64,000 bases of DNA. Source: Polyangiaceae bacterium. GTDB taxonomy: Bacteria > Myxococcota_A > Polyangia > Polyangiales > Polyangiaceae. The position numbers and the translations under genes were made by a program. The stretch lies in contig JAQSWN010000051.1 in NCBI GenBank assembly GCA_029266615.1, positions 1 through 64,000 on the forward strand, given 5' to 3'. The notes below the pieces were generated by a model, which had not been told where the DNA came from, did no database searches, and worked only from the letters and a program-made list of their open reading frames with translations. This document shows positions 6,677 to 29,815 of this stretch, one piece after another (within the stretch, counting starts at the first letter, position 1; every line of letters begins with the position of its first letter).

Positions 6677-7086
6677 GTCCCTGCCTTCCCGCCGCCAGTG
6701 CATTGACGCTCCACCTTAATACTAGGCAGAGCGGCTAGCAGGGCACGAATCGTTTCTGTGCTGCTCGCTCTCGACCGCACCTGCGCGCTCCGTGTACGAC
6801 GGCTTTGGCGGAGCAGACGCCCAATGGGGTGAGTTGCCACACCGTCAGCCGCATCGTCATTCGTTGCGTGAGCTCTCCGACGGTGACTGGCGATCTTCAC
6901 GCTATTAGCTCGCTGGGATCGATGCCGGTGACCAGGCAGCTGATCGGCACCGCTTCGGCCTCGACGCTTCCGACGTGATCGGGCGCTCGAGCTGGCATCG
7001 CTCGATGCCGTCCGAGTGGCATCTATCCCCGGCTGAGGTCAGAAGCGGGATTCGGTTCACGCTCCGGCCTGACGCCGCTAACGCCG
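6677..7086. other. Intergenic region upstream of double regulator
   Basis: About 410 bp between the start of the regulator and the end of the ABM gene. It presumably contains the regulator promoter. I see no coding sequence, RNA gene or clear repeat in it. Confidence 0.35.
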
Positions 7087-7377: not shown

Positions 7378-7564
7378 GTTCTGGGCCTCGTGCGAAGCCT
7401 ATGCTCGCCCGCCGTGCGTGACGCAAAGGCCGATGCACGACGTGAGTCGAGGGTGCTATGCAGAACATAGTCGGCACAGGGGGCAGATCGTCCTCTCTGC
7501 GAAAGCTGGCGAGCGCGCGACTCGCCTCGCCTCTGCGCTCCAGGTCATTCGTTTGCCGAGTCCG

Positions 7565-8383: not shown

Positions 8384-8407
8384 ATCGTGCCGGTGGAGCC
8401 CAACTCC

Positions 8408-9397: not shown

Positions 9398-9450
9398 AGT
9401 GCTTCTGCCTTTCAGTCGAATGCAACCCAGCTTGTCGTGGCCCGTACGAG

Positions 9451-10911
9451 CTATCCAGCCAGCTTCAGCGGCGAACCGAAGGAGCTGAGGTAACCCTGGA
9501 CCTCTGTCAGTCGGGACGTGGAGCAGTGTAGTGCTACGACGCCGTCCGGACGCAAGAGCACCATTCGACCAGGACCGAGCGCCTGATTCAATCGGTGCTC
9601 TCGTTGGGCGTTGTCCGCCTCGGTGAAAAGCACGCGGACAGCCGGCGCCTTCGCAGATTGCTCGAAGGCCTGGAGCTCGCGCCGGGCGCGAGACGAGTGG
9701 GAGGGGCCATCGGCCAACAGGACAAACCCCAGCGGCCAGTGCTGAGAATCCGCCGCCTGCCCGCTGGCGCGGAAGCACTCGGGCGCTGAAAGCCAGAACT
9801 TGCCGACGGCCCCGGAGCCGTCGCACTCGTGGATCAGCGCCGACGGCGCATAGCGCTGGCCGAGCCCAGAATACCGCAGCGGGAACGTCGAGCGAAACGC
9901 GTCCCTATTGGCAAGCGTCGGCAAGATCGGGGCCGCCAGCCCGAGATCTCGCCCGCCCGCCAGACGCATCGTGTAGTCGGTAGCTTCGGCGAGTTGACGG
10001 ATGAGCGGCAGCCGCTCTTGTTCATAGCTTTGGAGGACGAGCTCGGCGTCCCGGCAGCCGAGACACGCATACGCCAGCTTCCACGCAAGGTTCAGGGCGT
10101 CGCCAATGCCGGTGTTCATCCCGGTTCCACCGAGTGGAACGAACAGATGTGCGGCGTCACCGGCGATGAACAGCGACCCTCTCCTGAGTCGGTCGGCGAC
10201 GCCCCGGCACAGCTGCGCTCGAGACCGCCAGAATGGGCCGCGACGCAGGAAACCGGCCCCTACGATGACAAAGAGGGTCTGGTCGAACGCATGGTAGTAG
10301 ACCTGATCGCGAGGGGAGCCGTCGCCAAGCTCGAAGTCGCCAAGCACCATATGCGCGGCGTAGTCGGTCAGCTCGAGCTGGGCGCCTAGGCGCTCCCGCA
10401 CGACACTGTGGCGTCCCTCGCACCCGACCACGTAGCGATAGTGCCGGCGCTTGAGCTGCCCGCTGGAGTCCCGGAGCGTCACCTGCGCGGCGTCGCCGCG
10501 CTGTTCCACGTCGACCAGCTCCACGCCGCGTTCGACGGCCCCTCCGGACCTGACGAGCAACTCGTTCAGCTCCAACTCGGTCACGCTCTGCGGTTGCGTG
10601 ACGATGTTACGCACCAGGCCGGGAAGGTATCGGAAGTCCACCGCGGCGAGCCGCTGCGCGCGATGATTCACGTTGAGTCGGCGAATCCGACAACCGGAGC
10701 CGCCCAGGACGCCATACCCGCCCAAGATGGCGATGCCGTATTGCGACAGGTGATTGAGCGCCAGCGCCTTGCTGTCGGACGCGATCGTGAGCTTTGGATC
10801 GATGATGTCTGGCGCCAGGCCGTACCGGCGAAGTGCCCACGCCAAGGTCAGGCCCGTAGGACCCGCGCCGGCGATCAGAACTGATGCCGGTTCCGGAGCC
10901 ATGACACTCAT
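9451..10911 (-). CDS. FAD-dependent aromatic hydroxylase (PheA/TfdB type), shortened
   Basis: A 486-residue class A flavoprotein monooxygenase. The N-terminal VLIAGAGPTGLTLAWALRRYG is the FAD-binding GxGxxG fold, YVVGCEGRHSVVRERLG the second motif, and LFIAGDAAHLFVPLGGTGMN the GD motif contacting the ribityl chain. The C-terminal thioredoxin-like domain is present. The central substrate-binding region between VIVGAGFLRRG and GSLFIAGDAAH is much shorter than in typical members. The start at 10911 forms an ATGA overlap with the stop of the AfsA-like gene, so the two are probably translationally coupled. Hydroxylation of a phenolic or polyketide substrate is the likely role if the shortened protein folds. 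Confidence 0.8.
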   Translation of the reverse strand: MSVMAPEPASVLIAGAGPTGLTLAWALRRYGLAPDIIDPKLTIASDSKALALNHLSQYGIAILGGYGVLGGSGCRIRRLNVNHRAQRLAAVDFRYLPGLVRNIVTQPQSVTELELNELLVRSGGAVERGVELVDVEQRGDAAQVTLRDSSGQLKRRHYRYVVGCEGRHSVVRERLGAQLELTDYAAHMVLGDFELGDGSPRDQVYYHAFDQTLFVIVGAGFLRRGPFWRSRAQLCRGVADRLRRGSLFIAGDAAHLFVPLGGTGMNTGIGDALNLAWKLAYACLGCRDAELVLQSYEQERLPLIRQLAEATDYTMRLAGGRDLGLAAPILPTLANRDAFRSTFPLRYSGLGQRYAPSALIHECDGSGAVGKFWLSAPECFRASGQAADSQHWPLGFVLLADGPSHSSRARRELQAFEQSAKAPAVRVLFTEADNAQREHRLNQALGPGRMVLLRPDGVVALHCSTSRLTEVQGYLSSFGSPLKLAG

Positions 10912-11654
10912 GCTAGCTTGGCGAGCTCTAAAAGCTCTGAGCACTGCGTCATGACCTGAGACGCCGTCTGACGAGCACGTCGGCCTTCGAGACGTGTGCT
11001 GATGGAAGGATCCAGAAGCGTCAACACCATGCTCTGTTCCGCTACGACGATGTCTCCTTGGGTCGAGCGGATCATGAACGAAAGCGGCACCTGCGAGGAG
11101 GTCGCGTCGCCGGTCGCTTCCACCGTGACCGTCAAGGTCGTAGGTACGGGAAACGCGAACGCCAAGAAACTGACCTCACACCGCGCCCAAGCGATCGACC
11201 ACCGCTTGCCCTCGGGGTGTGGACATTCGCGTTCGATGACGGCAATGGTTGCCTGTCGAGCGGCTTCAATCATGACCATGCCGTTCACGTGTTGACCCGT
11301 GACGTGGTCCGCTAATCGATCCTGTTGCGGCTCGACCCGCAGCAGCATTCGATAGGTGCGTGTTGCGATTCGCTGAGGGGTGGTAATCAGAACGTAGCGT
11401 GGGTCACGCTTGTGAGTGAGCTCCGCCGGGCATGACTCTTCCGCATAGGCTAGACGTGGCGCCGAATGGAGCCTTGCTGCGGCTTGTGCCAGCTCGCTCA
11501 GCTGCTCCGCCGTGAGGCCCTGGCCACACACGAGCAGATGGCTCCCGTCGAGCGAGGGGAGCAGCTCCTGAGCTTGATCGTAGGTGATGGCCGCCGTCGT
11601 CTCGGCGAAGGCCCCGTAGCTGTTGCCTACCACCAGATGCACGTTATTCGACAC
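10908..11654 (-). CDS. AfsA-like hotdog protein
   Basis: A 248-residue protein starting at GTG (11654) with GGAG upstream. The segment DHVTGQHVNGMVMIEAARQA matches the A-factor biosynthesis (AfsA) hotdog domain, which in Streptomyces condenses a beta-ketoacyl thioester with dihydroxyacetone phosphate to start gamma-butyrolactone synthesis. AfsA usually has two such repeats; here one is clear and the N-terminal half is divergent. It heads the left arm and its ATGA overlap couples it to the flavin monooxygenase. Because it is cotranscribed with tailoring genes, it may serve the main product rather than a separate signal. Confidence 0.75.
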   Translation of the reverse strand: MSNNVHLVVGNSYGAFAETTAAITYDQAQELLPSLDGSHLLVCGQGLTAEQLSELAQAAARLHSAPRLAYAEESCPAELTHKRDPRYVLITTPQRIATRTYRMLLRVEPQQDRLADHVTGQHVNGMVMIEAARQATIAVIERECPHPEGKRWSIAWARCEVSFLAFAFPVPTTLTVTVEATGDATSSQVPLSFMIRSTQGDIVVAEQSMVLTLLDPSISTRLEGRRARQTASQVMTQCSELLELAKLA

Positions 11655-11866: not shown

Positions 11867-12247
11867 TCAGCCATCTAGCAGGATGACGGCAGCAATCTTG
11901 AGCTCGCCTGAACAGCGTCGCAGCACATAGGTGTTGAGAAGCATCTTCAGAGGCACCTCGTCCGGACCGTAAAGCGACCACCGCACGGTGAGCTCCGCTA
12001 GGTTCGGCCCATGGATGGTGAGCGCGCGTAGCTCGGCTGCACAGCGCGTCAGCCGCAGCTCGCGAAATGCACGAGTAACTGAAGTGAACTGTGCCAGAAG
12101 GGTCGCACGCGTCGGGTAAAGATCGACGGAATGAGCTGAGATGCCCGTTGTGGGGACATCGTAGAACGCGAGCACCTTTTCGGGCTCGCAGCTCTCGAAC
12201 GCCCTCGCATAGTTCTGGATCAATTGCTGAATTTCCGCGGTCACCAT
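11867..12247 (-). CDS. NTF2-like / SnoaL-like protein
   Basis: A 126-residue single-domain protein from MVTAEIQQLIQNYARAFESCEPEKVLAFYDVP, typical of the NTF2-like cone fold (SnoaL, ketosteroid isomerase, association domains). The second half (ELTVRWSLYGPDEVPLKMLLNTYVLRR) gives the expected beta sheet. Members are polyketide cyclases, isomerases or non-catalytic. Starts at 12295 or 12334 are possible. It reads away from the right arm and may be the first gene of the left-arm transcription unit. Confidence 0.65.
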   Translation of the reverse strand: MVTAEIQQLIQNYARAFESCEPEKVLAFYDVPTTGISAHSVDLYPTRATLLAQFTSVTRAFRELRLTRCAAELRALTIHGPNLAELTVRWSLYGPDEVPLKMLLNTYVLRRCSGELKIAAVILLDG

Positions 12248-12404
12248 TGATATTTCCGAGCAAGCTAGTCCATCGCTCAGGGAGAGCTCAATCATTGGTC
12301 CGCAGAATGGCACGAGGGGGACACTGCGCCCCATGAGGCTTCAGCACGCCTTGGCGTACAAACGGGCTCGCAGCGGAGACACTCCGCGTGAGGCGGGACG
12401 TTCG
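12248..12404. promoter_or_regulatory. Divergent promoter region of the biosynthetic cluster
   Basis: A 157-bp gap separates the outward-reading NTF2-like gene (minus) and the first diiron oxygenase gene (plus). All following genes to about 21.7 kb read plus, and the genes from 12.2 to 7.1 kb read minus. This is the only place from which both arms could be driven together. I do not see a clear -35/-10 pair or operator, so the assignment rests on gene layout. Confidence 0.4.
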
Positions 12405-13163
12405 ATGAAAGACCAGACGATCGCAGACGATGTATTGGCGGGCACCAAGCAGTTCGTCCAGGGGCCTGAGGAGTTCGCCCGAATGCCGGCGGAGTACCAC
12501 GACTTGGTCGTCCGGCAGATGATGGTTCATACCGAGGGCGAGTTGTCCGGAGCAGATGACTACCTCGACTTGTTCTATCCGATGACCAACTCGGCGTACG
12601 AGAAGAAGGTCTGCTGCGAGCGCGGCGCCGAGGAGATGGATCACTACCGGAAAGGTGCCGCCATCCTGAGCGCACTCGGTCACGACACGGCGTTTATGAT
12701 CGACACACCGCTGCAGGAGCGCAACCTGTACGCGACCGAGGCGGTCAAGAACGTCGAGACGTGGGTGGAGCGAGGGTTCTTCTCCTTCCTGGGCGAAGCG
12801 GCGGTGTTCGAAGTGCTCAAGGAGATGACCGAGAGCAGCTACAAACCTATCGCGGACATGTGCCCCTCCGTTATCGAGGAAGAGCGCGTTCACGTCGCCC
12901 ATGGCAAGCGCATCATTCGGGACCTCTGTCGCACCGAGAAGGGCCTCGCCGAAGCGCAGCATGCGTTGCTGCGGTGGTGGCCAGTCGCGCTCGATACCTT
13001 CGGGACGAGCAATTCGAAACGCTCGGCCGCCTACGTGAAGTGGCGCTTGCGCAAATTTTCGAACGAGGAGGCCCGGCGCCGGTTTATCGAGCTGACCGCG
13101 CCGAAGCTGCAGAGCCTAGGACTCGAGGTCCCCGGCCACGAATCGAATCGCAAATTTCTTTGA
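12405..13163 (+). CDS. PaaA-like ferritin-fold diiron oxygenase 1
   Basis: A 252-residue ferritin-like protein resembling phenylacetyl-CoA epoxidase subunit PaaA: RWWPVALDTFG, the KWRLRKFSNEEARRRFIE region and the APKLQSLGLEVP tail line up with PaaA. Candidate diiron ligands are Glu44 or Glu46, Glu77-x-x-His80, Glu131 and Glu160-x-x-His163, so the site looks complete. The ATG at 12405 is chosen by alignment with its paralogue at 14432. No PaaB, C, D or E genes are nearby, so it is not a phenylacetate degradation operon. It probably does an O2-dependent hydroxylation, epoxidation or desaturation on a CoA- or ACP-linked substrate. Confidence 0.8.
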   Translation: MKDQTIADDVLAGTKQFVQGPEEFARMPAEYHDLVVRQMMVHTEGELSGADDYLDLFYPMTNSAYEKKVCCERGAEEMDHYRKGAAILSALGHDTAFMIDTPLQERNLYATEAVKNVETWVERGFFSFLGEAAVFEVLKEMTESSYKPIADMCPSVIEEERVHVAHGKRIIRDLCRTEKGLAEAQHALLRWWPVALDTFGTSNSKRSAAYVKWRLRKFSNEEARRRFIELTAPKLQSLGLEVPGHESNRKFL

Positions 13164-13241
13164 ACGTGCGCATGCTTCACGCTCGGCTACTCCGGGCGTG
13201 AGCCGCGCACCAGTCGCATTGGTAGGGATGAGGAGCGCATA

Positions 13242-14390
13242 ATGCTTGTGCGTGAACAATTGGGTACAGCCGGGTTGACTGGAGCCGAGCAGGCGGTGCT
13301 ACGCGCGCTCGGTGGCGACCAGGACTACCTAGATCGGTACCGGGCCGTCACCAGGTTCTCTCGGAACGTCCGCTCGTCGGAGTATCTCCTGACGAACGCC
13401 TGCAACATCCGCTGCCGCGGTTGCTGGTTCTTCGAAAACGACTTCGACAAGACGACCAAGGAGCTCACGACGGAGCCACAGATACGTGAGTTCGTACGGC
13501 GTGAGCGAGAGCGTGGCATCAACTATGCCATCGTCATCGGGGGTGAACCAACGCTTGTCCCGAAGCGCGTCGCCGTCTTCGTCGAAGGGATGGACTACGT
13601 CACCATTTCCACCAACGGCCTCAAGCCGCTGCCGCTGCGCGGGTTCGAGCAGGTCGGCGTGCAGATTTCGCTGTTCGGGGGCGGAGCTCTCGACGACGAG
13701 CTTCGCGCGATCAAGGCAACAGGTGAGCGGTTCAACGGTCTATTCGATACCGCGTTGCGCAACTACCAAAACGACCCGCGCGCTTGCTTCGTCTACGCCA
13801 TCACCGAGGACGGCATTGGATTCATCGAGGAGAGCGTGCGCCGAATCCATGACAATGGAAATCGTGTCTCGTTCAACTTCTATAGCAAGTACGGTAGCGA
13901 CGACCCATTGCGTCTAGACAGCGCCACGCGCCTGGTCGACGCGGCGCTTCAGGTCAAGGCGCGCTACCCAGATACGGTGCTCAGTCACCCGTATTTCATC
14001 GAGACGCTCATTACCGGGCGCTCGCATTGGGGCGAGTTCGGCTACGACGTCTGCCCGAGCCTGAGCGTCGACAACCCCGTACACCTGGCGCGGCTCGCCA
14101 ATGGCAACCCGGTCCTCCCGAAGTTCAACGCTTGGGCGGCCGACTGCGAGACCGTCAACTTCTGCTGCACTTCGGGACACTGCAACGAGTGCCGGGATAG
14201 TCAGGCGATTCTGAGCTGGCTTCAGGTCAGCATGTACCGGTTCCGGACTACACCCGAGCTGTTCAAGACCTGGGTTGAAGTGGCGGAGAGCTACTGGAAG
14301 CAGTTCCCGTGGGCGCTCGGACCACGAGCGGCCGCGCCAAGCCCGGGGGCCCGGCGTGCGCTGCCTCTGGCCCCGAAGACACTCGCATAG
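13242..14390 (+). CDS. Radical SAM enzyme with C-terminal cysteine cluster
   Basis: A 382-residue radical SAM protein. TNACNIRCRGCWFF carries the CxxxCxxC [4Fe-4S] ligands (Cys54, Cys58, Cys61) and VIGGEPTLV is the GGEP motif that binds the SAM amino group. The C-terminal third has many cysteines (ADCETVNFCCTSGHCNECRD), suggesting an auxiliary cluster of SPASM or twitch type. The ATG at 13242 has a good GAGGAG upstream. It is sandwiched between two PaaA-like genes with short gaps. The reaction is unknown; I do not recognise a characterised subfamily. Confidence 0.85.
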   Translation: MLVREQLGTAGLTGAEQAVLRALGGDQDYLDRYRAVTRFSRNVRSSEYLLTNACNIRCRGCWFFENDFDKTTKELTTEPQIREFVRRERERGINYAIVIGGEPTLVPKRVAVFVEGMDYVTISTNGLKPLPLRGFEQVGVQISLFGGGALDDELRAIKATGERFNGLFDTALRNYQNDPRACFVYAITEDGIGFIEESVRRIHDNGNRVSFNFYSKYGSDDPLRLDSATRLVDAALQVKARYPDTVLSHPYFIETLITGRSHWGEFGYDVCPSLSVDNPVHLARLANGNPVLPKFNAWAADCETVNFCCTSGHCNECRDSQAILSWLQVSMYRFRTTPELFKTWVEVAESYWKQFPWALGPRAAAPSPGARRALPLAPKTLA

Positions 14391-14431
14391 ATCCCCATCG
14401 CCGTCGTCGGCGACATCAGTAGGAGAGTGAC

Positions 14432-15175
14432 GTGAATTCATATCCCGAGCCTTTGACGCCGAATTCCGTGGTTGGACCGGACGAATTCTTTCGGATGCCT
14501 GACGAGTACAAGGCGTTGCTGGTTCACCAGATGAAGGTGCATACCGAGGGTGAGGCTACCGGCGCTGACGACTATGCAAAGATCTTCTATCACCTGACCA
14601 AAGACCCGTACGAAAAGATGCTCTGTTGCAAGCTGGCGGCGGAGGAGATGAACCACCACATCATGGGTGTGGAGGTCTTGAAGGCGATCGATGTCGACGT
14701 CAGCTACATGGCTCACCTCGATATGCAGGACCGGAAGCTGTTCGATACGGAAGTTGTGAAGCGGATCGACACGTGGACCGAACGGGGCTTCTTCGGGTTC
14801 CTCTCCGAGGCGGCCGCGTACGCGCAGATCGAGGAGTTTGGTCACTCGAGCTACAAGCCGATTTCTGAGATGGCCGCGAGTATCCTACGGGATGAGAAGG
14901 GGCACATCGCGCATGGCTTCCGGATCATCCGCGACTTGTGCAAGACGGAAGAGGGTAAGGCAGAGGCCCAGGCCGCATTGACCCGCATGTGGCCGGCGAC
15001 CCTGGATCTGTTCGGGCGCAGTGACTCGAAGCGGTCGGCGGCGTACGTGCGTTGGGGGCTTCGGCGGTTGCGCAACGGCGATGCTCGCCAGCGCTACGCG
15101 GAGAGGACACGCCCCAAGTTGGAGAAGCTTGGATTGCACGCTCCCGACAACATGGCCAATCGCAAGTTCGTTTGA
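14432..15175 (+). CDS. PaaA-like ferritin-fold diiron oxygenase 2
   Basis: A 247-residue paralogue of the product of 12405-13163, similar along the whole length (shared VHTEGE, GADDY, SSYKPI, SDSKRSAAYV-type segments). The diiron ligand set also looks complete: Glu39 or Glu41, Glu72-x-x-His75, Glu126 and Glu155-x-x-His158. That differs from PaaA/PaaC, where PaaC has lost its metal site. It starts with GTG at 14432 after TAGGAGAG. It may form a heteromer with oxygenase 1 or act at a second position. A ferredoxin or reductase partner is not encoded in the cluster. Confidence 0.8.
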   Translation: MNSYPEPLTPNSVVGPDEFFRMPDEYKALLVHQMKVHTEGEATGADDYAKIFYHLTKDPYEKMLCCKLAAEEMNHHIMGVEVLKAIDVDVSYMAHLDMQDRKLFDTEVVKRIDTWTERGFFGFLSEAAAYAQIEEFGHSSYKPISEMAASILRDEKGHIAHGFRIIRDLCKTEEGKAEAQAALTRMWPATLDLFGRSDSKRSAAYVRWGLRRLRNGDARQRYAERTRPKLEKLGLHAPDNMANRKFV

Positions 15176-15197
15176 GTGACCTCGAACGCTGTCGCTC

Positions 15198-16163
15198 ATG
15201 CCTGGATCCGCGATGATGAGCGCTCGTGAAGCTATTTACCTGAGCAGCATCGAGTACGCTCTCGGAAGTGTGCTGCCGATGAGCCAGGCTCTTGCGGGAC
15301 AGGTTGGCCCTGAGCTCATGAGGAAGCTCGGCGATGGTGGGTTCTCGGGCGTGGCGGTTGCCGAGCGAGGTGCCGTCGAGCTCGCAGCGGCAGCGGCGGG
15401 CGCCGTCCTGACGCGAGGGAATATCGGTGCATCAGCGATCGACGCCGTGGTGTACGCGACCTGTAGCTTCTGGGGGGACGAGCAGGGGGAGGCGAATCGA
15501 GGCTGCCTTCAGTCGCAGCTGCTCGACCCTCTGGGGTTGGCCCACGCGCTCCTGTCGGGGGTGGCCCTGGCCGAGTCAGGAAATCTGGCCAGTGCGCTCC
15601 GAGTCGCATGCAACCTGGTGCGGAGCGGTGACGCCGAGACGGTCCTCCTCGTCACCGCGGATCGAGTGCCCGGGATCCCTGGTGAGTACCGAGCCATGCC
15701 CAACGCGACCGCGATCAACAGCGATGGGGCCGCGGCCTGTCTGATAACCAGAGAGCCACGGCACGGGTTCGAGGTCGAGCACATCGCCCAGCACGCCAAT
15801 CCGTGCATTCTGGAGAGGGTCAAAGGGGACGGCTTCGGAAAGTACTTGGACATCGTGGCGGGGTTGCGCGCCGCCGCTGGCGCGGTATTCCGCTCAACTG
15901 GTGCTTCACCTGACCAGTATCGGTGGCTGGTTACGAACAACTACAGCGTACCGACCATCTATGGCTTCGCCGAAGCGCTCGACGTGCGCCGCGAAAGGGT
16001 CTTTGTCGATAACGTCGCGCGTTTTGCACACGCTTTTGCGGCCGACGGACTCATCAACCTGGCCGACCTGCTGGCGGCGGCGGCGGCCCGGCGGGGGGAG
16101 CGGGTACTTGCACTATCGACTGGTCCTTTGACTTGGGGGGCGATCAGCTTGCGCCGATGCTGA
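15198..16163 (+). CDS. KASIII-like protein lacking the catalytic Cys (a)
   Basis: A 321-residue thiolase-fold protein of the FabH/KASIII group: IDAVVYATCSFW, SGDAETVLLVTADRV, INSDGAAACLI and DNVARFAHAFAADGLINLADLL follow the family pattern. The nucleophile position reads AESGNLASALRVA, with Ser127 aligned where Cys is expected. The His of the usual HQAN/HNVN motif is Asn247 (TNNYS). The third position keeps His in FAHAF. The start could instead be 15213 or 15216. It overlaps the next KASIII-like gene by 7 bp (ATGCTGA). It may be an acyltransferase, a structural partner, or an enzyme with a different mechanism. Confidence 0.75.
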   Translation: MPGSAMMSAREAIYLSSIEYALGSVLPMSQALAGQVGPELMRKLGDGGFSGVAVAERGAVELAAAAAGAVLTRGNIGASAIDAVVYATCSFWGDEQGEANRGCLQSQLLDPLGLAHALLSGVALAESGNLASALRVACNLVRSGDAETVLLVTADRVPGIPGEYRAMPNATAINSDGAAACLITREPRHGFEVEHIAQHANPCILERVKGDGFGKYLDIVAGLRAAAGAVFRSTGASPDQYRWLVTNNYSVPTIYGFAEALDVRRERVFVDNVARFAHAFAADGLINLADLLAAAAARRGERVLALSTGPLTWGAISLRRC

Positions 16164-17020
16164 AACAAGCGACTCGCCAATTGTATCTGACCGCCCTCGA
16201 AACGGCCATTGATCGGGGCCCTTCGGCGGACCCGCTGCAGGTCGCTGGGGTCGCGCTCGATCGGACGGTCGCGAGCGCAACGGCGCTGGTCGAAGAATCG
16301 ACGCTGCTGTTAGTCGCAGGATTCGCGTTCTCGGGACCGCGTCGGGCGCTGCCGAGGAGCGGGGCGCAGACAGCGGTCTTGGACAACGAGCTCGGTTCGA
16401 CGTTCGCGCGCGAGCTACTGCTGCGCCGTGGTCTTAATCGCCTTCAGCCACACGGCGTCCTGTTCGCAGAACATGCCCCGTTCGTGAATACGCTGCGCAT
16501 CGCGCGGAGCTTCGTCCTCGGTGAGGGCTTGCGGCACGTCCTCTGGGTCGTCGTGGACGCTGGCAAATGGGTTGTGCGGCCCCGAGAGTCCGCACGGAGC
16601 CACGATGGGGACCCGACGATCGGAGCCGCCGCGGGTCTGCTGACCTGCGAGGCCGAGAACGGCATCGGGATCCTCGGTATCAAGCGGGTGGCGGGTCCGA
16701 ATCCGAGCGCGCGCGCAGCGCTTGACGTGATCGCTGGACTAGGCGCCGAGCCCTGTGTCATCGGATTGCGGACTGCTCGTGGGGCCGGGCGGATCGGCGC
16801 CGCGCCCTCGTGGACTTCCGGGCTCGAGCACGGCTCGGTGGCCGAGCGTGTGAAGCGTCTGAACGCCTGGGCCGCGCCTACGGACCTCGAGTGCACACCT
16901 CTCGCGGCGGTATGCGAAGGCGCGGCCGACGTGCTGGAGGTAGCAACTTTCGAGCACCCGGACCGTTGGCGCGTTCGGGCTCGACAGCACTTCGTCGGCG
17001 ACGAGGGAGGTTCACGATGA
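16157..17020 (+). CDS. KASIII-like protein lacking the catalytic Cys (b)
   Basis: A 287-residue, more divergent thiolase-fold protein. GVLFAEHAPFVNTLRIARSFVLGEG aligns with the nucleophile helix of protein a, putting His106 at the Cys position; GEGLRHVLWVVVDAG and DPTIGAAAGLLTCE match the following strand and DGAGA-type region. The C-terminal half is short and lacks recognisable His/Asn motifs. The start at 16157 gives an ATGCTGA overlap like the one between later genes. The adjacent pair resembles heterodimeric arrangements such as PqsB/PqsC, but here neither subunit has the Cys. It ends in an ATGA overlap with the thiolase. Confidence 0.6.
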   Translation: MLKQATRQLYLTALETAIDRGPSADPLQVAGVALDRTVASATALVEESTLLLVAGFAFSGPRRALPRSGAQTAVLDNELGSTFARELLLRRGLNRLQPHGVLFAEHAPFVNTLRIARSFVLGEGLRHVLWVVVDAGKWVVRPRESARSHDGDPTIGAAAGLLTCEAENGIGILGIKRVAGPNPSARAALDVIAGLGAEPCVIGLRTARGAGRIGAAPSWTSGLEHGSVAERVKRLNAWAAPTDLECTPLAAVCEGAADVLEVATFEHPDRWRVRARQHFVGDEGGSR

Positions 17021-18252
17021 AGCGCGCCGTCATCATCGACGCGGTGCGCACGCCCATCACCAAGGGCTTTCAGGGTGAGTTGCGCGATATGCGCCCCGAT
17101 GACCTGGCCGCGTCGTGCATCGATGCCTTGCTCCAAAGGAACCCTGGTCTCGACCGGCAATGGATCGACGATTGCATCGTGGGCTGCGGTTTCCCCGAGG
17201 GAGCGCAGGGCATGAACCTGGGCAAGAACGTCGCTGTGGCCTCTGATCTCGGCGAGGGCGTCGCCGGCTGCACCGTTAGCCGCTACTGTGCTTCGGGGTT
17301 GGAGGCAATCGCCAACGCCGCTGGCAGGGTGGCGAGTGGCTACTCGGAGGCGGTCATTGCTGCTGGGGTCGAGTCTGTATCGCAGACACTGCGCACCGTG
17401 AACACCGAGCGTCTATTCAACCCTCGCATCGAGCAAAAATCGCCGGGCACATACGTGCGCATGAACCCAGCTGATCGAGTCACCCCTTTCTGGAAACGCG
17501 CGGTCCGTTGCATGGGCGAGACCGCGGAGATCCTGGCGGAGCGCGAGCGGATCGGCCGAGCGCAACAAGACGAGTTTGCCTGCCGAAGCCAGGCGCGTAC
17601 TGCGGCGGCGCAGCGATCTGAGCTCTTTGCCGACGAGATCATCGCGGTGCTGTTGGAACCTGGCTTGGACCTAGCGTCGAGGACTGCCAGCCAGCCGTTG
17701 ACTATCCGGCGCGACCTCTGCAATCGCCCGGACACGACCGAGGCCGTGCTCGCTGGCCTCGAGCCCTCGTTTCGCCCGAACGGTACCGTCACCGCGGGCA
17801 ACGCTGCACCGCCGTGCGATGGGGCAGCGGCTGCATTGATCGTTAGCGAAGACTTCGAGGCGCGTCATGCCCTCCCCAAGCTTGGCTACTTCTCGGGGTA
17901 CGCGGTGACAGCGTGTGAGCCGGAGCTGATGGGCAAGGGGCCGACGTTGGCAATCCCCAAGCTGCTGGCCCGGCACGGGCTCCGATTGGCCGACATCGAC
18001 CTGTTCGAGATCAACGAAGCGTTTGCGGCTCAGATGGTCTATTGTGAACGGGCTCTCAACCTGAACCCGGGGCGGGTGAACGTGAACGGAGGGGCGATCA
18101 GCGTCGGGCACCCCTTCGGCATGACCGGCGTGCGGCTCGTGGGTCATCTCCTACGAGAGCTGCGGCGCCGGGGCGGACGGCGTGGTGTGGTAGCGATGTG
18201 TACCGGCGGTGGGATCGGGGTCGCGGCATTGGTGGAGGCGGCGCAGTGCTGA
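17017..18252 (+). CDS. Thiolase family acyltransferase
   Basis: A 411-residue thiolase (acetyl-CoA acetyltransferase family). All active-site parts are present: Cys91 in TVSRYCASGLE, the EINEAFAAQ segment, the His in GGAISVGHPFGMTG and the second Cys in AMCTGGGIG. The ATG at 17017 overlaps the previous stop (ATGA) and begins MKRAVIIDAVRTPITKG, a canonical thiolase start. It could supply acetoacetyl-CoA or another beta-ketoacyl starter to the cluster, or cleave one. It is the only thiolase-fold protein of the three neighbours with an intact active site. Confidence 0.85.
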   Translation: MKRAVIIDAVRTPITKGFQGELRDMRPDDLAASCIDALLQRNPGLDRQWIDDCIVGCGFPEGAQGMNLGKNVAVASDLGEGVAGCTVSRYCASGLEAIANAAGRVASGYSEAVIAAGVESVSQTLRTVNTERLFNPRIEQKSPGTYVRMNPADRVTPFWKRAVRCMGETAEILAERERIGRAQQDEFACRSQARTAAAQRSELFADEIIAVLLEPGLDLASRTASQPLTIRRDLCNRPDTTEAVLAGLEPSFRPNGTVTAGNAAPPCDGAAAALIVSEDFEARHALPKLGYFSGYAVTACEPELMGKGPTLAIPKLLARHGLRLADIDLFEINEAFAAQMVYCERALNLNPGRVNVNGGAISVGHPFGMTGVRLVGHLLRELRRRGGRRGVVAMCTGGGIGVAALVEAAQC

Positions 18253-18926
18253 CCGACGGCGGACACGATGGTCCCCTTTCCGAGCTGGACCCGCGTGCCA
18301 CCGCGGCAGGCCCACTGGTCGACGCCGACCACCCGGTGGTGGCGCAATTCGTCCGACGGGTCGCGGGTGCGGCGACTGGAATTCGGGCCGTCGAGCTGCT
18401 GTTCGCGGTCGTGCGCGACCACATACGATATCAGGGGGTGGTCGATTACTCGAAGGAAGAGAGTTATCGCGCCAGCTCCGTGCTGAAATCGTCCCGGGGC
18501 TTCTGCATAGGCAAGGCAGTGCTACTCGCGGCGTGCGTACGTTCGCTCGGAATTCCAGCGGCGCTCGGCTTCGCCGACGTGCGCAACCATCTCGCCAGCC
18601 CCAAGCTACGCGCCTTGATCGGCGGTGACCTGGTCGTGTGGCACGGCTACACCAAGCTGTTCGTGAATGGCCGCTGGTTCAAGCTGAGCCCCGCCTTCGA
18701 TCGCGACACGTGCGAGAAGTTCGGCACCGCCGTCCTCGAGTTCGACGGCACGAACGACGCACTGCTCCAGCGGTGTGATCTGCACGGAAGGCAGCACATG
18801 GAGTATGTCCGTAGTCGGGGCACGTACTACGAACCGCCAGTCGAGCTGCTGGCAGCCGAGTTTCGGCTGCATCACCCGCAGCTTTGGGCCGTCGCTACGG
18901 AGCAGTCACCACCGCTCGCGCGGTGA
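18246..18926 (+). CDS. Transglutaminase-like protein
   Basis: A 226-residue protein with the transglutaminase/arylamine-acetyltransferase-like Cys-His-Asp triad: Cys87 in SSRGFCIGKAVLLAACVRSLGIPA, His133 in VVWHGYTKLFVNG and Asp152 in LSPAFDRD. It starts at a GTG overlapping the thiolase stop (GTGCTGA). It is immediately followed by an ACP gene. Transglutaminase homologues such as AdmF in andrimid biosynthesis form amide bonds between carrier-bound acyl groups. The same chemistry is a reasonable hypothesis here, but many such proteins are proteases of unknown role. Confidence 0.75.
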   Translation: MLTDGGHDGPLSELDPRATAAGPLVDADHPVVAQFVRRVAGAATGIRAVELLFAVVRDHIRYQGVVDYSKEESYRASSVLKSSRGFCIGKAVLLAACVRSLGIPAALGFADVRNHLASPKLRALIGGDLVVWHGYTKLFVNGRWFKLSPAFDRDTCEKFGTAVLEFDGTNDALLQRCDLHGRQHMEYVRSRGTYYEPPVELLAAEFRLHHPQLWAVATEQSPPLAR

Positions 18927-18958
18927 TGACGCTCGATACCAAATCCAAGGAGCAGAAA

Positions 18959-19198
18959 ATGCCGATCGAAGAACGCATCAAGACACTTATCATCGAACAG
19001 CTTCGGGTTGGCGGCGAAGACGTCGAGCGCGACGCCACGTTCGCGGATCTCGGGGCCGACTCTCTGGACCTGGCGGAGCTCCTCATGTGCTTCGAACAAA
19101 CTTTTGGGGTCCGGATTCCACCGGATTCCGCGCGTGAGCTGCGCTCAGTGGGCAGCGCCATTGATTATATAGTGGGCGCGACCTCGGATGAGCGCTGA
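18959..19198 (+). CDS. Acyl carrier protein 1
   Basis: A 79-residue ACP. LGADSLDLAELLMCFEQTFG contains the phosphopantetheine-attachment Ser35 in the DSLD motif. The ATG at 18959 follows AAGGAG. Its 3' end overlaps the KS gene by 11 bp, so ACP and KS are probably made together and work as a pair. No phosphopantetheinyl transferase is encoded in the window. Confidence 0.9.
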   Translation: MPIEERIKTLIIEQLRVGGEDVERDATFADLGADSLDLAELLMCFEQTFGVRIPPDSARELRSVGSAIDYIVGATSDER

Positions 19199-20483
19199 AC
19201 GCAAGGAGCCGAAAGCGGGCGTGCCTCGTCGACCGCGTGGTGGTCGACGGGTCGTCGTGACCGGCCTAGGTTGCATTTCGCCCGTCGGACTGGACGCTGC
19301 CGCCAGCTTCGGGCGTCTGCTCGAGGGTAGATCGGGCGTCCGCCCGATCTCGCATTTCGACGCAAGTACGTTCGATTGTCGCATCGCGGGCGAGGTCGAC
19401 GGCTTCGACCCAGCCAACTATGGCATCGGGGTCAAGGACGCCCGGCGAATGGATACGTTCGCGCAGTTCGCGTGTGCCGCGGCCAAGATGGCCCTCGACG
19501 ACGCAGGCATCGACCTGTCGCGGGCGCCGCACGACCGCATCGGCGTCTCCATCGGCACGGGGGTCGGTGGCCTTCAGGTTATTGAGAAGCAGCAGGAGCG
19601 TCTGCTCAAACGCGGGCCGCGCGCGGTTAGCCCCTTTCTCATCCCGATGATGTTGGGGAACCTAGCCTCGGGGCATGTCGCGATCCGTCATGGTCTAAGA
19701 GGGCCGAACCTGCATGTGTCGACCGCTTGCGCCACCGGCACGCAGGCCATCGCTGATGCCGGAGCAACCATCGAACGCGGCGACGCCGACGTCATGTTGG
19801 CGGGGGGAGCAGAGGCCGCGATTACGCCGCTACTGGTGAGTGGGTTCAGCGCAGCTGGGGCCTTGTGCACGAGTAATGCAGACCCGGCTGGTGCCAGCCG
19901 TCCTTTCGACCGAAGCCGAACAGGCTTCGTCATGGGCGAGGGCGCAGGCGTGCTCGTACTCGAGGATGAGGAGTTTGCCCGTCGGCGTGGCGCCGCGATC
20001 CTGGCGGAGCTTACGGGTTACGGGGTCTCGAGCGACGCGCACCATGTCACGGCCCCTGAGGAGGGAGGGCAAGGAGCTCAGCTGGCCATGCGGATGGCGC
20101 TGGCTCGTGCCGAGCTCGCTTCCGAGCAGATCGACTACGTTAACGCGCACGGAACGGGTACCGTCCTTGGAGATATAGCCGAAGCGCGAGCGGTCAAGCA
20201 GGTGTTCAAGGAGCATGCGACCAGCGGGGGTCTGTGGCTCTCCGCGACCAAGTCGATGACGGGACACTTGCTCGGCGCCGCGGGCGCCGTGGAGGCCGTC
20301 ATCTGCGTCCAGTCAATTCGACACGGGAAGGTGCATCCGACCATCAATCTGAACGACCCAGATCCGGAGTGTGACCTCGACTTTGTCCCGAAGGAAGCTC
20401 GCGACCGGCGGCTGCAGGCGGTCATGTCCAACTCGTTCGGCTTTGGTGGCACCAACGCAACGCTCATCTTCCAGACGTATTGA
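19188..20483 (+). CDS. FabF-type beta-ketoacyl-ACP synthase (KASII)
   Basis: A 431-residue KASII-type condensing enzyme with an intact triad: Cys181 in HVSTACATGTQ, His319 in VNAHGTGTVLGD and His358 in KSMTGHLLGAAGA, plus Lys353 and the C-terminal NSFGFGGTNA. It carries an extra N-terminal stretch of about 18 residues before RVVVTGLGC. No second KS or chain-length factor is nearby, so it is not a classical type II PKS minimal set. It probably extends an acyl chain on ACP 1 by malonyl units from primary metabolism. Confidence 0.9.
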   Translation: MSAERKEPKAGVPRRPRGGRRVVVTGLGCISPVGLDAAASFGRLLEGRSGVRPISHFDASTFDCRIAGEVDGFDPANYGIGVKDARRMDTFAQFACAAAKMALDDAGIDLSRAPHDRIGVSIGTGVGGLQVIEKQQERLLKRGPRAVSPFLIPMMLGNLASGHVAIRHGLRGPNLHVSTACATGTQAIADAGATIERGDADVMLAGGAEAAITPLLVSGFSAAGALCTSNADPAGASRPFDRSRTGFVMGEGAGVLVLEDEEFARRRGAAILAELTGYGVSSDAHHVTAPEEGGQGAQLAMRMALARAELASEQIDYVNAHGTGTVLGDIAEARAVKQVFKEHATSGGLWLSATKSMTGHLLGAAGAVEAVICVQSIRHGKVHPTINLNDPDPECDLDFVPKEARDRRLQAVMSNSFGFGGTNATLIFQTY

Positions 20484-20501
20484 CTCGATTCGGAGCACTC
20501 A

Positions 20502-21698
20502 ATGCAGATTACCGAAGCCTTCCTCCAAGATCCATATCCCACGTATGCTCGCATGCGCGAGGGGGCCGCCGCGCACTGGTCGGACGCCAACGGTGGCACC
20601 TGGTTCATTCCTCGCTACGCAGATGTCTGCGCTGGCTTTCTCGACGTGCGGCTCTCTTCGGGACGAAAGGCTGATGCTGCTGCCGATCAGTTTCCCAAGG
20701 AAGCGCGTCCCGAATTCGAGCCCTCGTTGCGCGTGATGCGGGAGTGGCTCGTCTTGCTGGATCCTCCCAAGCATACGCAGCTGCGCAAGCTCATGAACAA
20801 GGGATTTGTCAAAGACGTGATGGATAACCTTCGGCCACGCGTGCAGCAGGTCACTGGCCAGCTGTTGGAACGCGCGGCTGCCGAAGGTCGAGTGAACTTC
20901 GTCGAGGCGCTAGCCCGTCCGCTCCCCGCTCAAATCATTTGCGATTTGCTCGGAGTCGAGCACGACGTCCAGGCAGATTTCATTCGATGGTCCGAGGACA
21001 TCGTCTCCTTCGGCGGCAGCCTCAAACCAAGCGTTGAGCTGTTCCGGGCCGCACAGCACGCCGTGCTCAGCATGTTGGACTATTTCGCCAAGCTAGTGCC
21101 TGAACGGAAGCGTCGCATGGGCGACGATATGGTCAGCCTTCTCCTTCGAGCGGAAGAGGCGGACGTGGTGACGTCAGAACAGGTGCTAGCCAACTGCATT
21201 CAGCTCATCTTTGCCGGCAACGAAACTACGCGCAATCTGATCGCCAACGGCATGCATGTCCTACTTACTCGTCCCGAAGCCATGCAGAGCCTGCGCGACC
21301 ACCCCGAGCTGCTGCCGAACGCCGCGCTCGAGATGCTGCGGTTCGAGAGCCCGCTCCAGCTAATCCGACGCGTGGTGGACGTCGACATGCACTGGTGTGG
21401 CGTTCACATGCGAGCGGGACAGGGACTGATCCTGATGACGGGATCAGCCAACCGCGACTCGGCTGCTTTCCCGGATCCCGACAAGTTCGACCTGAGGCGG
21501 GGCGCTCCGAAACACGTGGCCTATGGTCACGGGATCCATCGTTGTATCGGTGCAGTGCTCGCGACGATGGAGACGGAGATCGCGTTGGGCTCCGTGTTGC
21601 GTCGCTTCCGGCACATCGAGCCCGACGCCGCAACGCCGGGGCGCCTGACGAATCCGATGTTGCGCGGCTTTTCAGAGCTCCTTGTGGAGCTGCGCTGA
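20502..21698 (+). CDS. Cytochrome P450
   Basis: A 398-residue soluble bacterial P450. The I-helix oxygen-activation motif is FAGNETTRN (238-242), ExxR is EMLR (277-280), and the haem ligand is Cys348 in YGHGIHRCIGA. Loops such as LLDPPKHTQLRKLMNKGF are typical of CYP107-like secondary-metabolism enzymes. GGAG precedes the ATG and the gap to the KS is 18 bp. It probably hydroxylates or couples the cluster product; redox partners are not encoded nearby. Confidence 0.9.
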   Translation: MQITEAFLQDPYPTYARMREGAAAHWSDANGGTWFIPRYADVCAGFLDVRLSSGRKADAAADQFPKEARPEFEPSLRVMREWLVLLDPPKHTQLRKLMNKGFVKDVMDNLRPRVQQVTGQLLERAAAEGRVNFVEALARPLPAQIICDLLGVEHDVQADFIRWSEDIVSFGGSLKPSVELFRAAQHAVLSMLDYFAKLVPERKRRMGDDMVSLLLRAEEADVVTSEQVLANCIQLIFAGNETTRNLIANGMHVLLTRPEAMQSLRDHPELLPNAALEMLRFESPLQLIRRVVDVDMHWCGVHMRAGQGLILMTGSANRDSAAFPDPDKFDLRRGAPKHVAYGHGIHRCIGAVLATMETEIALGSVLRRFRHIEPDAATPGRLTNPMLRGFSELLVELR

Positions 21699-21704
21699 CG
21701 CGCA

Positions 21705-22064
21705 TCAGCCCGTCGAACAGCGGTAGTGCGCAAAGACCTTCTCGATCTTTCCATGCTGATCGAGGTGCATCACCTCTGCGACGAGCCGCCGTCCGGCTCC
21801 CCAGAAGAGGAGCGTCACGCTCGAAACACAACTGAACGTATCGACGAGCTCGAAGTGCAGGTCGGGGTACTTCTCGAGACCTTTAGCGAAGTAGGCGCGG
21901 AGCGCGTCGCGGCCGCGTACGACGGGCTCGCCCGTCAGGTTGCCGGCCAAGGGCGAGACCAGCTCGGCAGAGTGCGCGTAGAGCGCCATGATCGCGTCGA
22001 CATCGTGTGTATTCCAGGTGGCAACGTGCTTCTCGGCAAAGCGGATCGCGTCGGTCGGGTCCAC
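21705..22064 (-). CDS. SnoaL-like protein, antisense within the right arm
   Basis: A 119-residue SnoaL/NTF2-like protein: DAIRFAEKHVATWNTHDVDAIMALYAHSAELVSPLAG followed by VVRGRDALRAYFAKGLEKYPDLHFEL. It starts at GTG 22064, which has GAGGAG upstream; longer ORF readings add low-complexity sequence. It is the only minus gene in the right arm and converges with the P450 gene with 6 bp between stops. It may be a polyketide cyclase-like or isomerase enzyme of the cluster, a second one beside 11867-12247. Confidence 0.75.
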   Translation of the reverse strand: MDPTDAIRFAEKHVATWNTHDVDAIMALYAHSAELVSPLAGNLTGEPVVRGRDALRAYFAKGLEKYPDLHFELVDTFSCVSSVTLLFWGAGRRLVAEVMHLDQHGKIEKVFAHYRCSTG

Positions 22065-22278
22065 AGCGCTTCTCCTCGGTCGGGTTCGGGTCAGCAGTGT
22101 CGAGGTGCGCGTAGGCGCTCGACGTGTGAATGCTAAGCGGTTGTTGCCAAGCCCGCAACGGTCGCCTCTGAGCGCCCGAAAGCGAGAGAGCGGGCCAGCT
22201 CGGGAACGGGGACGTTTCGTCCCCTGGTAGGTGCCTTCCCGCCCGGCTACAGACCACCCTGCACAAGTGAGGTTATCC

Positions 22279-22545
22279 GTGGTTGGACGAACACTGGCTG
22301 AAACCGAAGCTCGCGTCATAGAGATCATCATGAAGGCTTCTCTGGGGGCGGCTAACGCTGTGCCGGTCGAGTCGCAGCGCGACCTGCGTGACGAGCTGGG
22401 GCTAGATTCCAACGTGCTGATGTCCATTGCCTTCCGTCTCGAGAAGGAATTCGACGTCGACATCACCGCTCACGCGGACGAACTGGCGGCCTTGCGCACG
22501 GTAGGCGACGTGGCTCGTTTCTTTCACCAGGTCGGGGCGAACTGA
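22279..22545 (+). CDS. Acyl carrier protein 2
   Basis: An 88-residue carrier protein from GTG 22279 (GAGG upstream). RDELGLDSNVLMSIAFRLEKEFDVDI holds the candidate phosphopantetheine Ser44, although the usual DSLxxV is DSNVLM. It lies 40 bp upstream of the condensation-type gene, which suggests that it carries the acyl group that enzyme transfers. Confidence 0.8.
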   Translation: MVGRTLAETEARVIEIIMKASLGAANAVPVESQRDLRDELGLDSNVLMSIAFRLEKEFDVDITAHADELAALRTVGDVARFFHQVGAN

Positions 22546-22585
22546 ACCGTATTCTGGCCAACACCTGGGGAGCCGACGGGAGCTC

Positions 22586-23857
22586 ATGATGATTCGGCAG
22601 CTAGGTTTCGCGGAGGCGCGCATGCATTTCATGCATGCGTTGTTCGAGGGGACCACCCAGACATTGGCGGCAGTGCGGCTGCAGGGGCGCTTCGAGCTGA
22701 GCCTGTTCCGGGCCGCGGTGGACGAGCTAATCGCTCGCCATGAGCTGCTGCAGTGTACGATCGGTGAGCAAGCTGGCGCGCTCGTCTTCGAGCGCGTCGG
22801 GCCGTCGCTCACGTGCTTGGAGGTCTTGGAAGAACCGGACTGGAGGGCCGGGTTTCAGGTCATCAACTCCGTGCGTCTCCCGTTGGACCGGAGCCCCTGG
22901 GCTATTCGCATCCTACTCGACCCCGCGCACGGCTCGTGGGAGCTGGTGCTCGTCACGCACCACAGTCTGATGGATGGGCACGGCATGGACCGGCTCCTAC
23001 GAGAGCTGCTCGAGCGCTACAGCGACCGACTGAGGGACCCTCAGGCTAGGCGACCGGTGTCTATCCGCCCTGTGCCCGCGGCCGCCGAAGCCATGCTCCC
23101 GCGCACCTTGAGCTGGCCCGACTTTGCGGCTCGCCAAGCACAGCTCGCGGGTCTCCAGCCCGCGCGGATTCCCGACCCGCACGTTGCGCGAGCTCCGCAC
23201 CGTGAGCGCCGCACCGCGACGCTCTTCTTCAGTCTACCCCCTCGTCGCGTTGAGGAGTTGGCCCGACGCGCGTCCGAGCAGCGTACCACGTTCAACTCGT
23301 GGATCGCGGCCTGTTTGTTGCGCGCGGTGTTCGAGCACTCGCCGAACCGTTCGACGATGGCTCTCAACACGGCGTTCTCTCTTCGATCGCTGTGTGATGG
23401 GCTCGAGGCCGACGATCTCGGCTGCTATGTCGCGGTCGTTCCGACGTTTCATGGCACTTGTACCGGCGTTCCGATTGCCGACCTAGCGCGCGATCATGGG
23501 CGACTGCTGACGCGCGCGATTTTCGAGTACGCGCGTCATCCCGAGTCCGCGGCCTTTGCCGCAATGCGGTCCGCCCTCGAGCCGCTCGCGGACGTGAGGG
23601 CGTTCGTGCAGGACATTGGGTACACCTACGCGGAGACGGCGCTTCTCGACCGCTACGGAGAGCTGACCGTCGAGCACTTCTATGCAAGCGCCAATCGCGC
23701 GGCGGGGACTGCCGCAGCCGTGTTGCACGGCGTGAAACATCAGGGAGCGGTGTATTTCACCATGAACTACACGGCCCCGCTTCAGGACCATGCCTGGGTG
23801 CAGCAGGTGACGGACGAGCTCCTCCGGCTGTTCACGTACGAGGCGTCCGCAAGCTGA
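22586..23857 (+). CDS. Standalone condensation-domain acyltransferase
   Basis: A 423-residue protein of the condensation/PapA/wax-ester-synthase superfamily. The catalytic motif is THHSLMDGHG (His125, His126, Asp130), and the C-terminal half contains the expected second lobe with LNTAFSLRSLC. It is not fused to A or T domains. Its neighbour ACP 2 is the likely acyl donor. It could form an ester or amide between the carrier-bound acyl chain and a free alcohol or amine. It is the last gene of the right arm. Confidence 0.85.
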   Translation: MMIRQLGFAEARMHFMHALFEGTTQTLAAVRLQGRFELSLFRAAVDELIARHELLQCTIGEQAGALVFERVGPSLTCLEVLEEPDWRAGFQVINSVRLPLDRSPWAIRILLDPAHGSWELVLVTHHSLMDGHGMDRLLRELLERYSDRLRDPQARRPVSIRPVPAAAEAMLPRTLSWPDFAARQAQLAGLQPARIPDPHVARAPHRERRTATLFFSLPPRRVEELARRASEQRTTFNSWIAACLLRAVFEHSPNRSTMALNTAFSLRSLCDGLEADDLGCYVAVVPTFHGTCTGVPIADLARDHGRLLTRAIFEYARHPESAAFAAMRSALEPLADVRAFVQDIGYTYAETALLDRYGELTVEHFYASANRAAGTAAAVLHGVKHQGAVYFTMNYTAPLQDHAWVQQVTDELLRLFTYEASAS

Positions 23858-24000: not shown

Positions 24001-24033
24001 CTAGCCAGAGCTGGCCGGAAGCTAGGTTTTTTT
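24001..24033 (+). terminator. Possible rho-independent terminator after the cluster
   Basis: CTAGC at 24001-24005 pairs with GCTAG at 24021-24025, followed by GT and a run of T. The stem is short, with a possible inner CCAG/CTGG. The T run ends right at the ATG of the dehydrogenase, so it could also affect that gene's translation start. The upstream 140 bp are visibly AT-richer than their surroundings. Confidence 0.3.
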
Positions 24034-29747: not shown

Positions 29748-29815
29748 AGGGGGAGAGGGCGCGGGGCGTGGTGATCCCGTACGACAGCAGAACCGTTCAG
29801 CTTTTGGACGGTTCG

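Follow-up and report, generated by a model that had tools for sequence, protein, structure and literature searches.

The window analysed here, a stretch of 64,000 nucleotides from contig JAQSWN010000051.1 of a Polyangiaceae bacterium, contains a real, rare and apparently mobile gene cluster, in which the ordinary logic of free-standing, carrier-based biosynthesis surrounds an odd centre. That centre is made up of a PaaA-like diiron oxygenase and a radical S-adenosylmethionine (SAM) enzyme of the SPASM/twitch type, encoded next to each other at the start of the right arm of the cluster. Our preferred reading, held with middling confidence, is that the cluster lies on an element integrated in a tRNA-Arg gene and that the two metalloenzymes form a module acting on a thioester of an acyl carrier protein (ACP) or coenzyme A (CoA). 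It is this PaaA-radical SAM pair, and not the right arm as such, that is of main interest.

Active-site residues of the metalloenzyme pair

The right arm encodes two PaaA-like proteins, PaaA1 and PaaA2, one on either side of the radical SAM gene. They share domain PF05138 with PaaA of 1,2-phenylacetyl-CoA epoxidase (PDB codes 3pvr and 4ii4) and, on alignment to the Escherichia coli protein, each has ligand-capable residues at all six positions that we take to be the diiron ligands, with Glu at one position where PaaA has Asp. Unlike PaaA, the window copies adjoin a radical SAM gene and score far below the cut-off of the PaaA equivalog TIGR02156 (89.0 and 82.9 bits against 280). PaaB, PaaC, PaaE and later Paa genes were not recognised among the 30 proteins scanned between 1 and 31 kb, a set that does not include small open reading frames.

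The radical SAM protein passes the Pfam cut-off and has the CX3CX2C motif in the form CNIRCRGC. Its C-terminal region shows a CC-C-C pattern, Cys271, Cys308, Cys309, Cys314 and Cys317 being invariant across 22 aligned sequences; the cysteines of the SPASM/twitch class are present and an auxiliary cluster is predicted. An AlphaFold2 model, with a predicted local distance difference test (pLDDT) score of 85.5, finds its best Foldseek matches among SPASM/twitch-type PDB entries. SkfB (6efn), anSMEcpe (4k37) and BlsE (7vob) have the same CX3CX2C core and a cysteine-rich C-terminal region, but the window protein is remote from them, with a template-modelling score of ~0.45 and 12-20% identity. Its NCBIfam matches, peptide maturases among others, are weak and all far below cut-off. 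To our knowledge, no SPASM/twitch radical SAM enzyme has been paired with a PaaA-like enzyme before.

Conservation of the core in the family

A radical SAM protein of at least 70% identity is encoded in four of 108 family genomes (a fifth, G411, has a distant one at 39%), and PaaA1 is found at 69% identity or more in the same four, five others matching at 25-28%. The gene order PaaA1-radical SAM-PaaA2-thiolase-ACP-FabF is common to the window and three relatives (G027, G449 and G450). Among these four the window alone has two genes for KASIII-like proteins, KASIIIa and KASIIIb, and a transglutaminase-like gene interposed within the core. In each of the relatives, FabF is followed by a metallo-beta-lactamase-fold protein and a class IV aminotransferase gene lies nearby; neither was matched in the window. 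An earlier reading of the sequence alone had put weight on conservation of this neighbourhood in other genomes. The six-gene core does recur in three other family genomes, and the radical SAM-PaaA combination in several bacterial groups, but no other genome was found to have the full right-arm set. Among 317 genomes of the class, KASIIIb (E 1e-8) and the condensation-type protein (at a strict E of 1e-40) were each found only in the genome of the window.

The second PaaA of the relatives has lost ligands: E46 is absent from all three, E77 is replaced by Gln in G027 and by Asp in G449 and G450, and E160 is absent from G027. All 11 PaaA1-type copies, window PaaA2 included, keep the six ligands. 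Since ligands are lost from the one type and kept in the other, a catalytic and scaffold pair resembling PaaA and PaaC, the latter in what we take to be its role, may have arisen in the three relatives, while both copies are intact in the window. On the PaaA tree, the support bearing on a possible common origin of window PaaA2 and the degenerate copies is 62/24.

The pair across bacteria

Radical SAM relatives at 57-63% identity occur on four genome contigs, two from Streptomyces, one from Tistrella mobilis and one from a Burkholderiales metagenome-assembled genome. A PaaA gene is adjacent or one gene away in both Streptomyces and in Tistrella, not in the Burkholderiales genome. Among 377 phylum genomes, PaaA at 50% identity or above was found only in the genome of the window, with three others at 28-29%. 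The radical SAM protein has matches in 15 of 72,556 plasmid records, 14 of them at 58-60% (11 Alteromonas, one Enterobacter hormaechei, Tistrella pTM3 and Burkholderia stagnalis) and one at 26%. The same 14, and no others, have PaaA at 50% or above, three further records matching at 29%; five of the 14 were inspected in context. With the 12 Alteromonas and Enterobacter records counted as one locus, there are 15 distinct loci with a radical SAM identity of at least ~53%, and in 10 of these the PaaA-like gene adjoins the radical SAM gene or is separated from it by a single gene. The PaaA-like copies of at least 50% identity found by the search all sit beside such a radical SAM gene, in four of four family genomes and, judged by coordinates, in 14 of 14 plasmid records. 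In a tree of 29 radical SAM proteins, the 10 PaaA-linked sequences lie within a well-supported group of 15.

The pair has two kinds of setting. In the window, Streptomyces and Burkholderia it is part of a large cluster; on plasmids, of which some are typed as conjugative, it also occurs as a three-gene cassette with Tn3 transposase genes alongside. This 3.2-kb cassette, PaaA-radical SAM-MaoC, is 99.7-100% identical in the 12 records (for example L053 13889-22095 and L055 12070-17095), which comprise Alteromonas plasmids and an IncC plasmid of E. hormaechei; it had no match in a collection of 5,426 E. coli genomes. Such near-identity on Alteromonas and Enterobacter plasmids suggests recent long-distance transfer. 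On the B. stagnalis megaplasmid (L054 12312-22058), a PaaA-radical SAM-PaaI-cupin set is divergent from genes for an acyl-homoserine lactone synthase, an adenylating enzyme, an ACP and a chlorinating enzyme, perhaps a quorum-controlled cluster. Genes of thioester-type chemistry are frequent neighbours: an adenylating enzyme, ACP, ketosynthase and 4HBT protein in Streptomyces, 4HBT in Tistrella, the adenylating enzyme and ACP of B. stagnalis together with its PaaI thioesterase, and MaoC in Alteromonas; the metallo-beta-lactamase-fold protein encoded behind FabF in the three family relatives is counted with them.

Around the pair, Streptomyces and pTM3 have in common a Rieske oxygenase at 46% identity and, with weak similarity (27%), an AurF-like protein, which in pTM3 scores below the Pfam cut-off. 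The pTM3 pair lies at L056 12750-18939, and the T. mobilis chromosome (L009) holds a second copy with no other match to the window or Streptomyces genes tested. One relative, L008, belongs to Streptomyces chattanoogensis, source of the azoxymycin pathway (AzoC), and also encodes an AurF-family protein; the text of the azoxymycin paper (PMC6783550) contains neither 'radical SAM' nor 'Rieske', and searches on azoxymycin and on Pendulispora turned up no connection with the window cluster. A connection with the sponge-symbiont radical SAM protein SwfC was rejected, SwfC having a predicted B12-binding domain according to PMC3908369. A phage origin of the radical SAM gene was likewise rejected: the window copy gave no phage match, and for the Alteromonas copy none was confirmed in viral contigs.

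More distant radical SAM relatives (31-40%) were found in 22 genomes. Eleven of the 13 loci examined are tandem radical SAM pairs, nine of these with a FabF-type ketosynthase nearby; in the remaining two, a single radical SAM gene precedes a large open reading frame with a ketosynthase match. Such tandem pairs beside a FabF-type ketosynthase (L045 8354-11801, L047 8739-12104 and L048 7765-11642, among others) occur across several families within the phylum, and an ACP-like open reading frame lies close to some of them.

The apparent tRNA-Arg element

Three copies of a tRNA-Arg(CCT) segment, the last within the intact tRNA gene, delimit two units (Table 1). For comparison, 200 random 77-mers from 45000-63900 gave a longest exact match of 14 in the left part of the window. 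As in other tRNA-targeted elements, an integrase lies by a tRNA-derived direct repeat and an intact tRNA stands at one end. There are thus, apparently, two tandem integrative elements, of which unit 1 (108-29730, 29.6 kb) holds the whole cluster and unit 2 (29731-44812, 15.1 kb) other genes; the left end of unit 1 coincides with the contig end, its outer junction lying beyond the available sequence. The two integrases align in two pieces, at 86% and 74% identity. The unit 1 gene, unlike its counterpart in unit 2, can be read only in two frames. Unit 2 also contains a subtilase adjoining an AAA ATPase and an IS21-type transposase/IstB pair (35833-39224 and 40897-43156).

The same tRNA in a genome of the same genus, G006, is accompanied by a further pair of repeats; next to one lies an integrase with 56% identity to the unit 2 enzyme, next to the other a 29% match. 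Third-position GC content averages 0.754 over 18 genes chosen from unit 1 and 0.830 over 10 chosen from the far side of the tRNA, a difference with a Mann-Whitney p of 0.00014. Within the genus, the radical SAM gene is present in one of eight genomes, that of the window. Contamination of the assembly is 7%, yet ~1 kb beyond the tRNA matches G006 at 88%.

Organisation of the cluster and its other enzymes

The right arm consists of two plus-strand units, 12405-21698 and 22231-23857. The sequence-only reading had described a single operon; this fails because the reverse-strand SnoaL-like gene, with GAGGAGAAG as ribosome-binding site before its GTG start, sits within the 532-bp gap separating the P450 gene from that of ACP2. 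Its gene list fared better, every gene being present with an intact frame, all but KASIIIb being supported by Pfam or NCBIfam, and the start/stop overlaps ATGCTGA, ATGA and GTGCTGA being exact. All 13 plus-strand frames tested, 12 from the right arm plus the following alcohol dehydrogenase (ADH) gene, are uninterrupted, which rules out a degraded cluster. The ADH gene, at 24035 after a gap of 177 bp, is probably outside the cluster; a terminator-like site at 24011-24025 fits an end of the gene unit at 23857, but shuffled sequence yields sites of this kind at least as often (7 observed in the region, 8.2 expected). A promoter scan of the region found none, against 2.2 expected.

Table 1. Features of the two units and of the gene cluster, with supporting evidence
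Feature	Position	Strand	Evidence
att-like copy of 20-nt tRNA-Arg(CCT) segment; left end of unit 1	108-127	+	Exact match to 44813-44832
Tyrosine integrase of unit 1, two frames (194-868, 646-1476)	194-1476	-	Phage_integrase; weak Phage_int_SAM_3 below cut-off
HAD hydrolase	2877-3851	-	Pfam/NCBIfam
Amidohydrolase	3634-5202	-	Pfam/NCBIfam
Response regulator	5285-6703	-	Pfam/NCBIfam
ABM monooxygenase	7087-7377	-	Pfam/NCBIfam
Alpha/beta hydrolase	7565-8383	-	Pfam/NCBIfam
Aldo-keto reductase	8408-9397	-	Pfam/NCBIfam
Flavin adenine dinucleotide (FAD) monooxygenase	9451-10944	-	Pfam/NCBIfam
AfsA-type protein	10908-11654	-	AfsA domain above Pfam cut-off
NTF2-like protein, divergent from PaaA1	11867-12334	-	Weak DUF6841 (NTF2-like) match below cut-off
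PaaA1, PaaA-like diiron protein	12405-13163	+	PF05138, 73.8 bits
Radical SAM protein	13242-14390	+	PF04055, 33.3 bits (cut-off 29.5)
PaaA2, second PaaA-like protein	14432-15175	+	PaaA_PaaC Pfam match; 54% identity to PaaA1
KASIIIa, KASIII-like, without active-site Cys	15198-16163	+	ACP_syn_III and ACP_syn_III_C
KASIIIb, degenerate relative of KASIIIa	16157-17020 (best start 16157)	+	31% identity over 108 amino acids, E 2e-5
Thiolase	17017-18252	+	TIGR01930, 400 bits (cut-off 241)
Transglutaminase-like protein	18246-18926	+	PF01841, 47.4 bits
ACP1	18959-19198	+	PF00550, 55.8 bits
FabF-type ketosynthase	19188-20483	+	fabF TIGR03150 (NCBIfam), 591 bits (cut-off 494)
Cytochrome P450, last gene of first plus-strand unit	20502-21698	+	PF00067, 107 bits
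SnoaL-like protein	21705-22064	-	SnoaL_2, 50.2 bits; GTG start with ribosome-binding site
ACP2	22231-22545	+	PF00550, 33.3 bits
Free condensation-type (PapA5-like) acyltransferase	22586-23857	+	PF00668, 37.4 bits
Second att-like copy, at the junction of units 1 and 2	29731-29748	+	18-nt exact match
Tyrosine integrase of unit 2	29816-31015	-	PF00589, 97.3 bits
tRNA-Arg(CCT), integration site	44786-44862	-	ARAGORN; shared segment 44813-44832

The description as a biosynthetic cluster with neither a polyketide synthase or nonribosomal peptide synthetase megasynthase nor a chain-length factor is supported. No closed open reading frame listed in 1-34000 exceeds 522 amino acids, hence no megasynthase; and only one FabF-type ketosynthase occurs among the 30 scanned proteins, hence no chain-length factor and not the pair of KS-alpha and chain-length factor found in aromatic type II polyketide synthases. 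Catalytic motifs are generally kept: Cys-His-His in FabF, RYCASG, GHPFG and CTGGG in the thiolase, the heme-binding Cys of the P450 in GIHRCIG, and a DS motif in both ACPs (DSL in ACP1). The condensation-type protein has HHxxxDG as HHSLMDG at residue 125 and matches PDB entries 8s6l and 1q9j (PapA5), while the transglutaminase-like protein finds only weak AlkB matches in the PDB (E ~0.1).

The KASIII-like proteins depart from the Cys-His-Asn triad of FabH. Aligned by eye, KASIIIa has Ser at the Cys of a 34% identical Nostoc relative, and Asn and His at the His and Asn positions of FabH; HMMER places the Cys position one residue away. KASIIIb is more degenerate still. That both lack the Cys, as first proposed, stands, but the link of KASIIIb to this family is its match to KASIIIa alone (Table 1): it has no Pfam or NCBIfam match and no credible PDB match, and its structure model has a pLDDT of 32. 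PqsB and PqsC are a heterodimeric KASIII pair with one degenerate subunit, and the two adjacent window genes resemble them in this, but the active-site Cys is absent from both window proteins. The left arm (2877-11654, minus strand) recalls A-factor-type butyrolactone synthesis (AfsA/ScbA) in having an AfsA-domain protein and a HAD hydrolase, but the former scores 45.5 bits against a cut-off of 200 for ScbA/BarX.

Proposed pathway and alternatives

PaaA belongs to a kindred of enzymes acting on acyl-CoA substrates. This, the recurrent pairing and the recurring carrier, ligase, ketosynthase and thioesterase neighbours point to a thioester-bound substrate. Most likely, both metalloenzymes would act in turn on one ACP- or CoA-bound thioester, the radical SAM enzyme activating an inert C-H bond for rearrangement, ring closure or desaturation and the diiron enzyme inserting oxygen. 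The modified unit could then pass to ACP1 and be extended by thiolase and FabF, any reductions being borrowed from fatty-acid synthesis or carried out by the aldo-keto reductase. Tailoring would fall to the P450, the FAD and ABM monooxygenases and the SnoaL/NTF2-like proteins, and the Cys-less KASIIIa/b pair might move the unit between carriers. Release or joining, with formation of an ester or amide, may involve the HHxxxDG acyltransferase, the transglutaminase-like enzyme or the AfsA-type protein.

What is observed is the gene content and its order, the open frames, the conserved metal ligands and core, the repeated pairing and the setting between tRNA copies; a thioester substrate, the sequence of the reactions, the part played by each tailoring gene, the activity of every member and the membership of both arms in one jointly regulated pathway are predicted. 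Several observations weigh against this scheme. The PaaA-linked radical SAM proteins do not form one clade, three changes being needed on a tree with several poorly supported forks. Five members of their group have no PaaA; three of these are on contigs ending within ~1 kb of the gene, but L010 and G245 have full flanks, so that the radical SAM protein can evidently work without PaaA. In both G063 and G245 it has a methyltransferase-domain protein as neighbour, joined in G063 by an MMPL transporter, and no carrier was seen in either neighbourhood. The hotdog genes counted among the thioester-type neighbours belong to different subfamilies, lie several kb off in Streptomyces and were not matched in any of the three closest relatives; in pTM3, the gene that separates radical SAM from PaaA (16203-16682) has no Pfam match. 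As regards the supposed scaffold subunit of the relatives, the Asp at E77 in G449 and G450 could still bind iron. Finally, neither the left arm nor the KASIIIa/b, transglutaminase, P450, ACP2 and condensation-type genes turned up in the stretches inspected for the relatives, which span 17 kb in one case and 40 kb in the other two, a SnoaL-like gene in G027 being the sole further right-arm match; the genes in question may therefore form a separate pathway.

This leads to the best of the alternatives, improbable but to be taken seriously, in which one island has brought together distinct pathways, divided either between the arms or between the core and the remainder of the right arm, and the core has a product of its own. 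The three relatives, where the core stands alone with the metallo-beta-lactamase-fold protein and aminotransferase, agree with it, as does the splitting of the right arm by the SnoaL-like gene. It accounts poorly for KASIIIa/b and the transglutaminase-like gene, which are embedded in the core, overlapping adjacent genes by 4 to 7 nt or standing 22 and 32 nt from them; such tight spacing points to one co-expressed pathway, at least over 12405-21698. Distinctly less probable is a role of the pair outside any acyl pathway, in the maturation of a ribosomal peptide or other protein or in making a cofactor. The nearest folds do include the peptide maturase SkfB and anSME, the NCBIfam matches, far below cut-off as they are, point the same way, and the three-gene plasmid cassettes have few partners; but no precursor peptide was recognised, though no systematic search was made, and what does recur is carrier, ligase, ketosynthase or thioesterase genes. 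Marginally less probable again is a role in the breakdown of an aromatic acid, akin to phenylacetate degradation: a PaaA-like oxygenase, a thiolase, PaaI/MaoC-type neighbours elsewhere and a left-arm FAD hydroxylase would suit it, but scores of 83-89 bits against 280 led to the rejection of ordinary phenylacetate catabolism, PaaB, PaaE and later Paa genes were unseen among the 30 scanned proteins, and ACPs, FabF and the acyltransferase are biosynthetic.

Significance of the pair

The sequence-only reading had called the gene set apparently undescribed, and this holds in a literature search of titles and abstract openings, subscription journals being mostly outside its scope, where no description of a PaaA-like/radical SAM pair was found. 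We propose, somewhat tentatively, that PaaA-like and twitch-type radical SAM proteins together constitute a module not described before, which moves horizontally, has a thioester chemistry of its own and serves as an interchangeable cartridge in several phyla. Pairs of metalloenzymes cooperating on carrier-bound substrates often signal new chemistry, and the tRNA-Arg element suggests a route by which such a cluster can move. A radical SAM gene of this family adjoining a PaaA-like gene provides a handle for genome mining, one that finds clusters devoid of polyketide synthase or nonribosomal peptide synthetase megasynthases which megasynthase searches would miss, and the minimal three-gene cassette of the Alteromonas plasmids offers a small, testable system in which the reaction may be found.

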